From contig WFMW01000059.1 of NCBI GenBank assembly GCA_015488885.1, positions 1-32,638 on the forward strand: a stretch of 32,638 bases of DNA, given 5' to 3'. Origin of the DNA: Gammaproteobacteria bacterium (GTDB lineage Bacteria; Pseudomonadota; Gammaproteobacteria; SZUA-229). A program made the position numbers and the translations under genes. A model generated the notes under the pieces. The model was not told the origin of the DNA. It worked only from the letters and a program-made list of their open reading frames with translations, and searched no databases. Below, one piece after another: positions 2,317-23,151 of this stretch. The stretch's first letter is position 1. Each line of letters starts with the position of its first letter.

Positions 2317-3513
2317 TCAACTCTGGGTAAAAATAACCACTGAGATCATTAAGTTACCGTGATGGTTTATGCCATCAATAAAACAGCCCTGTTCACCAAA
2401 GGTAAACATACCATGGAACGGAGCATGACCAAGGGCATTGTGCAAACCACTGGCCACTTCAGTCATCCGTGTCTGGATGCCTAGCATACAACCCGCACAG
2501 TATACGACCAGTGCCCCGGCAATCTGCGAACCATCCCAGTTCTGGCGTTGCAGAATACCACTGGCAACAGAACCTGCACGGTGACTCAGGCTGTCAGGGG
2601 AGCCTGACATTAGTGTTAGTAGATCGCCAGTATTAACTTTAGCAAATAAACGGATAGAACCATGATCCAGAATCTGTTCTGGATGAAGCAGAGCATAATA
2701 AGGGACATTCTGGATTTGTCCAGCTTCACGTCCGAGTGGCTGGAAGGTAGAAACCTGCAGGATATTACCGCCGGATAACTGTGTATCGACCAGCCCCTGT
2801 GTCCAGCTATTATAAACCTCAGCAGCAGGCTGGTTGTTGATCTGTTCAATGATGCGACCGTTGGCTCTGGTCACAGTGCCACAATGGTTGGTTGGCGTAT
2901 AACCACTATGAAAGGACAGCGCAATCTGGCATTGAGGATACATGGCTATCAATAGCACGCCGTCAGTTTCAAGACTGTCACGGCTAAACTGCCACCATTC
3001 ACCACTGATTGTATTATCAGCACTACTACCACCGATAACCGGTACATGACGGCCTATCACCGAGGCAATCCCATCAAGTACGGCTTCTTCTGAGCCGGGA
3101 GCTGCACTCATCCAGACCAGGTCAGGTAGTTCACCGGGGCGATCCGCATCATTGATCGCCTCACGTATGGCCTGAGCCGCCACCAGTTCGGGATTATCTG
3201 ACTGACTGAGCAGGCTGATACCAAAATCTCCGCCATCGTCTGCAAAGGCAATCAGACCCAGACCATAACCCTCAGTAGAGTGATAACCGCTATTATTCAT
3301 TGCACCCAGGCAGGATGATGATGCCGCTACTTTACAGGATTCCGGTACCCGTTCAGTAAGATATTTTTTTAGCGCCGAGGCAGAATAATTTGCGCTGGCA
3401 TTACAGAGGAGTAAGACAGGTTTGTGGTTAAGTTTGTCGATGATCTGCGACCAGGCAGTGCTGACAGCCTTTGTCGTATCCATATGTGTGCTGTTACCTG
3501 TCGCTATTTCCAT
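2317..3513 (-). CDS. FIST-domain sensor protein (NosP-like candidate)
   Basis: A 398-residue protein without a signal peptide or membrane segment. The N-terminal half fits the FIST_N domain (KPVLLLCNASANYS, a CLGAMNNSGY-type loop, and GGSSADNTISG near residue 170). The C-terminal half fits FIST_C, with the linker GYTPTNHCGTVTRANGR and the ending FTFGEQGCFIDG followed by HHGNLM. FIST proteins are signal-input modules. The NosP subfamily binds haem and senses nitric oxide, and is usually encoded beside a hybrid kinase or cyclic-di-GMP enzyme. Here the stop TGA is one base from the kinase start, so they are co-translated. Haem binding is inferred from family and context only. Its ATG lies 26 bases from the end of the MITE, so its promoter must lie in or beyond that element. 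Confidence 0.85.
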   Translation of the reverse strand: MEIATGNSTHMDTTKAVSTAWSQIIDKLNHKPVLLLCNASANYSASALKKYLTERVPESCKVAASSSCLGAMNNSGYHSTEGYGLGLIAFADDGGDFGISLLSQSDNPELVAAQAIREAINDADRPGELPDLVWMSAAPGSEEAVLDGIASVIGRHVPVIGGSSADNTISGEWWQFSRDSLETDGVLLIAMYPQCQIALSFHSGYTPTNHCGTVTRANGRIIEQINNQPAAEVYNSWTQGLVDTQLSGGNILQVSTFQPLGREAGQIQNVPYYALLHPEQILDHGSIRLFAKVNTGDLLTLMSGSPDSLSHRAGSVASGILQRQNWDGSQIAGALVVYCAGCMLGIQTRMTEVASGLHNALGHAPFHGMFTFGEQGCFIDGINHHGNLMISVVIFTQS

Positions 3514-3535: not shown

Positions 3536-3704
3536 CTAAGGAGCCTCTGAATAAGTCGTGGATACGCATCTTGAGTCCAGGATTTCTCATAGCAGCGTTA
3601 CTAAGCAATTGAAATAGAATAACTATTCCAATCACTTAGTGCCTTGCTCTGAAAAATTCTGGCTCTCAATCTGCTGTACCCAGACTTGTTCAGAGGTTCC
3701 CTAA
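3536..3704. mobile_element. MITE-like element (3540-3700) with CTAA target duplication
   Basis: A 161-bp element. Its ends GGAGCCTCTGAATAAGTC (3540-3557) and the complement of GACTTGTTCAGAGGTTCC (3683-3700) match at 16 of 18 positions, and it is flanked by CTAA on both sides (3536-3539 and 3701-3704). The centre holds a second inverted repeat, 3601-3617 with 3623-3639, pairing at 14 of 17 positions around a 5-base loop. It encodes no transposase. A 4-bp YTAR-type duplication with GG-starting ends is typical of IS5-group transposition, so cross-mobilisation by such an element is inferred. The right-hand duplication overlaps the secF stop codon. Confidence 0.75.
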
Positions 3705-4636
3705 GGATTATCATCAACAATCTTTTCTTTGGCTACGACAAGAAAATCCTGTCTGCTTACATTCATGGTCATTAACAGGCTACTGGCAACATAAATGGAT
3801 GAATAGGTGCCGATGCCAATACCAATAATTAAAGCCGTTGCAAAGCCATGAATAACTTCCCCGCCAAAAATAAACAGAGCAAATAATACCAGCAAGGTGG
3901 TAAAGGATGTCATCAAAGTTCGGGACAGAGTTTGTGTAATCGACATATTAATAATCTTGATTTCCGGTGTGCGGCGTAAACTACGGAATGTTTCCCGAAT
4001 TCTGTCAAGTACCACAACGGTATCGTTTAGTGAATAACCAATAACCGCCAGAATCGCTGCCAGTACGGTTAAATCAAATTCCAGATGAAACACGGAAAAG
4101 AAGCCGGTAGTAATGATTACATCATGAATCAGAGCCAGAATGGCACCTACGGCAGATTTGAACTGAAAGCGCATACTAATATAAATCAAAATACCGCCCA
4201 GGGCGACCAGCATGGCAATACCGCCATCATCACGCAGTTCATTACCTACCTGAGGGCCAACATATTCAACCCTGCGCATCTGTACTTTTCCCTTGCTTAC
4301 CGAGTTTAAAACGGTGAGTACATTATCACCAATGCTGGCTTTATTAATATCATTACGCGGTGCAATACGTACCAGTATATCTTTGGTGCTGCCAAAATTC
4401 TGTACTTTTGCATCCTTGAATCTGGCTTTATTTAATGCGGTTCTTATGGCATCCAGATTGGCACTGTTCTGATAACTGGCTTCGATAAGATAGCCACCAG
4501 TAAAATCAATACCAAGATTTAACCCCCGGGTTGCCAGACTAAACAGTGAAATAACAATTAAAGTTAAAGAAAATGTCATGGCAATCTTGCGTTTGCCCAT
4601 GAAATCGATAATTTTTGTAGCCGCTGGTTGTGACAT
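3701..4636 (-). CDS. secF: Protein translocase subunit SecF
   Basis: A 311-residue inner-membrane protein, the normal length for SecF. It has a first membrane segment at about residues 17-36, the periplasmic motif GIDFTGGYLIEA (about 42-53), then five more hydrophobic segments between about 130 and 295, including the family motif GYSLNDTVVVLDRIRE. SecF joins SecD and YajC around SecYEG and uses the proton gradient to help complete protein export. The start ATG is preceded by AGGAAA with suitable spacing. It follows secD by 115 bases and is the last gene of the queA operon. The stop codon TAG is formed within the duplicated target site of the adjacent MITE, so the protein is not shortened in any obvious way. 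Confidence 0.97.
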   Translation of the reverse strand: MSQPAATKIIDFMGKRKIAMTFSLTLIVISLFSLATRGLNLGIDFTGGYLIEASYQNSANLDAIRTALNKARFKDAKVQNFGSTKDILVRIAPRNDINKASIGDNVLTVLNSVSKGKVQMRRVEYVGPQVGNELRDDGGIAMLVALGGILIYISMRFQFKSAVGAILALIHDVIITTGFFSVFHLEFDLTVLAAILAVIGYSLNDTVVVLDRIRETFRSLRRTPEIKIINMSITQTLSRTLMTSFTTLLVLFALFIFGGEVIHGFATALIIGIGIGTYSSIYVASSLLMTMNVSRQDFLVVAKEKIVDDNP

Positions 4637-22232: not shown

Positions 22233-23015
22233 ATGAAATTACAACCACGTCCGTTTTTACTTGCTACTGCCATTATTTCAGCCATGACTGCGACAACGGT
22301 GTTTGCTGATAATGGCCAGAATCCCTGGTCACCTGATTATAATTCTAAGCAGTATAATTCAAACCAGTATAATTCGAATCAGTATAGACCAAACCAGTAC
22401 AACCGAAACCATTATAACTCGGGTCGGTATAGCTCACCACGGTACAACACACGGCCAGCTCATCATAACCATCAATTACCACCACAGCAATATCAACATC
22501 GTACAGCATCACGATCCACCAACCCCTGGCGTCAACCTGCTCCTCCCCAGAGTGCCAGAACACCGGCTTATCGGCAATCATCCTCTGCCCATAATACCTA
22601 TAACAGACAGCCACCACAAACTGAAAATATAATGCATTACAACCGAGCACCTGCCAGTCAAGCTCATTTCAGGCCGAACGGGTTTAATCCAAATCATAGT
22701 TTTAAGCAGAATCATGTTGCACCAAATCCCTCATCTCGCTTTAACAACCCGGGTTATAACCCTTATTTCCAACGTCGCCACCATAATAATTTCTGGGGGA
22801 ACAGCGGTCCCGGTGCATGGATGAACCCTAACAGACATAATCTCAGCCAGGGTTGGGATGATATGCTCAATGCACCCAGCCGTATGGGTGATATGCCAGG
22901 TGGCTGGTCAGCGCCTTCCGTTAGTATGCCTAACCCCGTTGATGTGGGTGATCAGTTTAAGGATAATGCCAGAAATCTACCTGATCAGATGCGTAATATG
23001 AATAGTGGTAACTAA
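22233..23015 (+). CDS. Secreted Asn/Tyr/Gln-rich repeat protein of unknown function
   Basis: A 260-residue protein with a clean signal peptide (basic MKLQPRP, hydrophobic core, cleavage near VFADNG). Residues about 35-75 hold a five-residue repeat of the NQYNS type (YNSKQ, YNSNQ, YNSNQ, YRPNQ, YNRNH, YNSGR), then Pro/His/Gln/Arg-rich low complexity, and a C-terminal segment that looks more ordered (MGDMPGGW...MPNPVDVGDQFKDNARNLPDQM). No family is recognised. The composition suggests an extracellular matrix or cell-surface structural role, possibly aggregation-prone. An adjacent MITE copy begins directly at its stop codon. Confidence 0.7.
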   Translation: MKLQPRPFLLATAIISAMTATTVFADNGQNPWSPDYNSKQYNSNQYNSNQYRPNQYNRNHYNSGRYSSPRYNTRPAHHNHQLPPQQYQHRTASRSTNPWRQPAPPQSARTPAYRQSSSAHNTYNRQPPQTENIMHYNRAPASQAHFRPNGFNPNHSFKQNHVAPNPSSRFNNPGYNPYFQRRHHNNFWGNSGPGAWMNPNRHNLSQGWDDMLNAPSRMGDMPGGWSAPSVSMPNPVDVGDQFKDNARNLPDQMRNMNSGN

Positions 23016-23151
23016 GATTGAGAACCGGAATTTTTTAGAGCAAGGCGCTAAGTGATTGGAATAGTTACTCTATTTCAATTACCTAGTCACGCAGCTATGA
23101 GAACACTGGACGTATAAAGGTGTAGTCACGACTTATTCAAAGGTTCACTAA
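23012..23151. mobile_element. Truncated MITE copy (23016-23147) at a stop codon
   Basis: Bases 23016-23147 align, inverted, with the full element at 3540-3700 and are about four fifths identical by eye. The copy lacks the first 29 bases, including one terminal repeat. The right end GACTTATTCAAAGGTTCA is followed by CTAA (23148-23151), and CTAA also stands at the left junction (23012-23015), where it forms the stop codon of the repeat protein. The internal inverted repeat is kept: 23048-23064 with 23070-23086, 14 of 17 positions. Confidence 0.7.

Follow-up and report, generated by a model that had tools for sequence, protein, structure and literature searches.

A stretch of gammaproteobacterial DNA of 32,638 nucleotides (the window) carries a short non-coding sequence between secF and a FIST-domain gene, and the locus raises the question of whether this sequence belongs to its host genes or arrived as a mobile element, and, in the latter case, what its interior does. 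Bacterial MITEs are generally regarded as ends plus filler. The original prediction, made from the letters alone, was of a complete 161-bp MITE with ends matching at 16 of 18 positions, CTAA on both sides, an inner inverted repeat of 17 positions and no coding capacity. Letters and coordinates were verified for each of these features (Table 1), and no open reading frame of 80 or more amino acids was found inside the 161 bp. The prediction missed that the entire element forms a hairpin, that the fold is conserved on one strand and that its core is common to elements with other ends.

Table 1. Features of the element at the secF locus and of its surroundings, in window coordinates. Gene neighbours, here and throughout, are plain ORF calls.
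Feature	Position	Strand	Remark
Target-site duplication, left copy (CTAA)	3536..3539	.	
Complete MITE, 161 bp	3540..3700	-	minus strand = strand A (more stable fold)
Left 18-bp terminal inverted repeat GGAGCCTCTGAATAAGTC	3540..3557	+	
Right 18-bp terminal inverted repeat GGAACCTCTGAACAAGTC	3683..3700	-	identical to one end of the L219 IS5-family element
Conserved core, model R2 match	3570..3670	-	83.1 bits
Internal-loop motif, 5' half: GCAAGGCA	3640..3647	-	consensus TCAAGGCG
Internal-loop motif, 3' half: GTAACGCTGC	3592..3601	-	consensus CAACGCAGA
Inner hairpin, one arm	3601..3617	+	17-position repeat of the original prediction; 5-base loop
Inner hairpin, other arm	3623..3639	+	
GCAGATTGAG, 5' side of tandem G.A internal loop, strand A	3665..3674	-	partner 3566-3575
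CTCAAGATGC, 3' side of tandem G.A internal loop	3566..3575	-	
Target-site duplication, right copy (CTAA)	3701..3704	.	holds the secF stop TAG (minus strand 3703-3701)
secF (TIGR00966), full length	3701..4636	-	
FIST-domain gene (PF08495, PF10442), downstream	2317..3513	-	start 26 bp past the element
Second copy, left end missing, CTAA on both sides	~23016..23147	+	

The SecF protein is left intact by its neighbour: its C-terminus reads ...VDDNP, and most close relatives have ...VDDxP at that position. At the second copy in the window, the left CTAA likewise holds a stop codon, that of the ORF at 22233-23015. The end pattern occurs four times in the window against 0.3 times in shuffles, which, together with the many further copies in the genome, argues that it is not a product of chance. 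A lone 18-bp end of the family (GGAATCTCTTAACAAGTC) lies at 203-220 on the minus strand, with no partner and beside a short direct repeat (TGAAATAATCAGAC); it is probably a remnant.

A search of the genome (2.63 Mb in 72 contigs) returned further copies. At least seven are full-length, with lengths of 153-163 bp and identities of 74-96% (mean 82%); five of these seven are flanked by YTAR duplications, one by a TAAG duplication and one by none. Ends of this kind also bound derivatives of 48, 58, 73 and 289 bp. One full-length copy (G000:C25:27590) sits in the central CTAA of a 48-bp element, and when the copy and one CTAA are removed, its flanks match an uninterrupted 48-mer elsewhere in the genome (G000:C4) at 52 of 56 positions. 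Judged by sequence, this nested insertion is a paralogous empty site. The 48- and 58-bp elements themselves (G000:C4:5228-5275, C62, C5:18273-18330, C7:586-643, C60 and C38; L099, L105, L096, L101, L107 and L108) consist of hardly more than two facing ends, and several have YTAR flanks, so that they look like very small MITE-like units.

Absence from orthologous loci would be the other expectation for an insertion, and the secF loci of 29 other genomes are without the core; neither of the two outcomes that the prediction named as refuting it was therefore observed, with the reservation that SecF protein identity in these genomes is at most 75% and the non-coding flanks are not comparable base by base. 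Across a wider set of 101 copies gathered with a covariance model, 31 have identical YTAR tetranucleotides on both sides and 39 identical 4-bp flanks of any kind, while 21 lie immediately against a stop codon, which a YTAR target would lead one to expect. A search of plasmid DNA with the element gave no match. We regard the sequence at 3540-3700 firmly as a mobile element.

That the element is non-autonomous and of IS5 type, as predicted, is borne out by its many copies, its YTAR duplications, the empty site and the existence elsewhere of NF033581 elements with the same 18-bp ends. IS5-family elements of relatives carry GGAAACTCTGATTAATTC-like terminal repeats and TTAG or CTAG duplications, and a scan with TARGGAACCTCTGAAYAAGTC returned 118 stretches, mostly from Proteobacteria; these include complete IS5 elements that have the same ends as the MITE. 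One is a 1151-bp element with a CTAA duplication in Thiotrichaceae bacterium UBA4486 (L219), one end of which is identical to the right end of the window element at 18 of 18 positions; other IS5 elements show a few differences. Its transposase matches NF033581 at 334 bits (E 6e-100), and its plasmid-borne relatives, one of them ISXfu1 (49.8% identity), carry IS5-family annotations. A 1196-bp IS5 element in Achromobacter pulmonis ANB-1 is present in several copies with YTAR duplications, although one of its two ends diverges. The full insertion sequence with the same ends that the prediction called for therefore exists in other bacteria, but none was found in this genome.

The claim that the family is mobilised in trans in this genome did not hold up. 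Searches of its 72 contigs, from which a short IS contig could be missing, gave no NF033581, PF01609 or PF13586 match, and this result, together with the divergence of the full-length copies, makes transposition here look old; the family appears old and is probably immobile. One candidate autonomous element (G009:C333), with two ends 1.7 kb apart, was actually a 150-bp MITE and a separate end, and no autonomous element bearing the hairpin core was found. IS5-family elements of the NF033581 kind (transpos_IS5_4; L219, L173, L111 and L114) share near-identical 18-bp ends and 4-bp YTAR duplications with the window element but differ from it in their length of about 1.15-1.2 kb, in their transposase gene and in having no hairpin core that we could see. 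Being short and dispersed, with matching ends, a YTAR duplication, an empty site and no transposase gene, the window element has the features of a MITE of this family. An autonomous partner in the same genome is needed for present mobility and not for membership. The kind of element was named correctly; its mobilisation in this genome at present is not supported. An IS5-type transposase presumably acted on it in the past.

The interior of the element is far from featureless. A single hairpin takes in the entire sequence, and the 17-position repeat is only its top. The predicted RNA minimum free energy is -84.2 kcal/mol for the minus strand and -79.3 kcal/mol for the plus strand, with z about -13 and none of 200 shuffles as low. 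We call strand A the strand that starts ...AAGTCTGG; at this locus secF and the FIST gene are both encoded in the same sense as A. Strand A is more stable than its complement, B, in 35 of the 36 copies that were chosen solely by their end sequence (mean difference 19 kcal/mol) and in 96 of the 101 covariance-model copies (mean 16 kcal/mol); the first figure is the cleaner one, as the orientation of the 101 copies comes from the model itself. Folding each strand on its own alignment gave -57.6 (A) against -25.5 (B), and independent folding of the two strands of 51 cores gave -28.9 and -5.4, respectively.

Pairing on strand A bears marks of having been maintained. In the alignment 94.7% of cells are paired, compared with 34-42% when slid, and compensatory changes, with both sides altered, are seen in 25 of 55 pairs. 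G.U cells outnumber A.C cells by 140 to 21, a count made on the A-derived structure and by itself biased towards A. At columns 88-105 the pair has switched from U.G to G.U and is still a wobble. Among changes confined to one copy, the lean towards G.U is weak (14 G.U, 7 A.C), which suggests that the asymmetry is mostly old and belongs to mobile lineages rather than to resident copies. Orientation to flanking genes is random in the 101-copy set (26 ++ and 27 --; 15 and 16 among copies abutting a stop codon), and this speaks against both transcription-linked mutation and a function of the sense strand in host mRNA. A hairpin serving host mRNA in the sense direction, which the first few copies had suggested, was dropped on the same grounds. 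DNA energy parameters yielded an asymmetry of the same sign, so the folding does not separate RNA from single-stranded DNA. These results make it likely that selection acts on one strand. We infer that in mobile lineages it sees a single-stranded nucleic acid, most likely transcribed RNA, and we lean towards a core that acts as a transcribed RNA motif.

The core is not confined to elements with these ends. Its consensus on strand A is TTCAAGGCGnnAAnCGCAnGTAATAGCnnGCTATTGCnAAGnTTTnCAACGCAGAAA, with the layout TCAAGGCG-[hairpin]-CAACGCAGA, and within the window's own genome it recurs in elements with GAGACCTTTGCACGA ends (C45 and C49); in elements of the same genome with TAACTGCTCAG-type ends only the TCAAGGCG...CAACGCAGA loop has been retained, with different helices around it. 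The pattern TCAAGGCGN{25,55}CAACGCAGA gave 410 matches in 24 of the 274 genomes of the class and none with a reversed control. Nearly all of the matches listed are 52-58 long, within an allowed range of 42-72, and their flanks contain further end types, with several unrelated ends. Because element types were gathered by similarity to the core, their number is not a number of independent origins; several single matches lie in coding-like sequence and are probably due to chance. Three genomes have very high motif numbers (192 matches in G247, 71 in G198 and 48 in G045), and the copies in G247 and G045 have TAACTGCTCAG-type ends and are perhaps related to the TAACTGA repeats of Beggiatoaceae (mentioned in PMC4853749). 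Three other genomes, G158 (L435), G050 (L430) and G276 (L433), contain TCAAGGCG...CAACGCAGA repeats with a long extension past the hairpin and no strand asymmetry, of which G158 holds 21 near-identical copies; these possibly represent a separate, recently active kind of element. Over the phylum, the looser pattern TCAAGGCGN{25,55}CAACGC was too unspecific, being common in the control too, and a single genome from outside the class (G435) clearly stood out, with 55 matches and none in the control. The core may thus reach beyond the class. Searches of Rfam 15 with the element and its relatives gave no match at or above the gathering score, and we found no description of the ends, the core or the MITE in the open-access literature searched.

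Taken jointly, the observations are very probably explained by a non-autonomous hairpin MITE, moved in trans by an IS5-type transposase and built around a core module conserved on one strand. The 18-bp ends (about GGRANCTCTGAWYAAGTC) would be what an IS5-family DDE transposase of the NF033581 type recognises, and its insertion of the element into YTAR would give the 4-bp duplication. Each of the words TTAG, TTAA, CTAG and CTAA includes TAG or TAA, so that a stop codon would often be the insertion site and the gene would stay whole, as it does in the case of secF; the target would thereby explain how these elements come to lie at stop codons without disrupting genes. The body is a single hairpin whose pairing is conserved on A, including G.U wobbles that would be A.C mismatches on the other strand; it has a conserved TCAAGGCG/CAACGCAGA internal loop, above which stands an inner hairpin some 37 nt long. 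This motif behaves as a module kept while the ends change, because the same motif is present in hairpin elements with unrelated ends. We offer a further step with some hesitation, as a conjecture we would not yet back against its competitors: the portable, strand-specific loop around a near-constant inner hairpin would be a functional module shared by many unrelated MITE families, Correia repeats included, that acts as a single strand, probably as transcribed RNA binding a common host factor, and helps spread or tolerance whichever transposase is at work.

Part of this pattern might have simpler origins. Descent alone, from one ancestral hairpin element whose G.U pairs were inherited and whose ends were swapped by recombination, with no present selection, is a credible though not a favoured account. 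Many G.U columns are common to different genera, the singleton changes are only weakly skewed and orientation to genes is random, all as descent would have it; yet TCAAGGCG/CAACGCAGA and their spacing persist in element types whose helices around the motif are wholly different, and neither the pairs altered on both sides nor the wobble maintained across the switch at columns 88-105 is readily reconciled with inheritance alone. Strand-biased mutation, in which transcription- or replication-linked C-to-T and A-to-G changes accumulated on one strand of master copies without selection, seems unlikely. By reasoning, any transition in a hairpin arm turns into a wobble on one strand but a mismatch on its complement, and a bias would therefore mimic the pattern; the copies are indeed divergent, but the asymmetry has the same sign in copies of both orientations to flanking genes and in the majority of hairpin element types whose ends differ. 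The idea of an immobile host hairpin, a 3' UTR element, terminator or RNA-processing site in the secF-FIST gap, draws on the position between two co-directional genes and the great stability on their sense strand. It is largely refuted, and we consider it very improbable, given the multiple copies, the target duplications, the nested insertion, the 29 secF loci that lack it and the random orientation of the 101 copies; no terminator-like U tract was found, and the relatives' secF loci examined show no FIST match beside secF.

A one-strand-conserved module inside a mobile hairpin invites comparison with other short repeats of bacteria. ERIC, RUP, CIR, REP/REPIN and the Tn3-derived TIMEs are likewise short, non-coding, mobile or repeated hairpins (PMC2229807, PMC4133298, PMC3116915) but have other ends and targets than the window element. 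The MITEs of Ca. Thiomargarita nelsonii, also many-copy hairpins in a sulfur-oxidising gammaproteobacterium, have 10-bp direct repeats with 19-bp inverted repeats or are flanked by TATAG, and the ends of the window element are not reported in them (PMC4853749).

The core also bears a likeness to the Correia repeats (NEMIS, CREE) of Neisseria, which are short hairpin MITEs too and contain CAAGGCG...CAACGCC on the same strand. Their ends, TATAGTGGATTAA, which we take as the hallmark of Correia, differ from the GGAACCTCTGA-type ends of the window element, which is therefore not itself a Correia repeat. Although they have been known since 1988, we are aware of no transposase identified for them. 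When core model R2 was run on 72.7 kb of Neisseria-type viral contigs, the four best matches were all Correia repeats, on the expected strand and over the full core length (E 1e-4, 2.7e-4, 2.7e-4 and 0.02, with rough calibration and two of the four near-identical). Model R1 ranked Correia repeats first as well, and CAAGGCGACGAA is shared exactly between Correia and L305, whereas R2 found no match over 100 kb of E. coli K-12. With E-values of this size and with different ends and target, convergence or chance, the shared words being too short to tell of descent, remains a real contender, short of an even prospect; against it stand the matches just described, and we judge the Correia core likely to be homologous to that of the window element. 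Correia repeats are about 107 or 155 bp long (PMC2229807), and their transcripts are reported to be RNase III substrates (PMC2229807, PMC10969869). A core that lies inside many unrelated small mobile elements, probably including Correia repeats, points to an unrecognised shared function. If the core indeed keeps its fold on a single strand and recurs with unrelated ends, the filler of these MITEs would be a functional part of them, and the Correia repeats would be tied to a wide class of hairpin elements.
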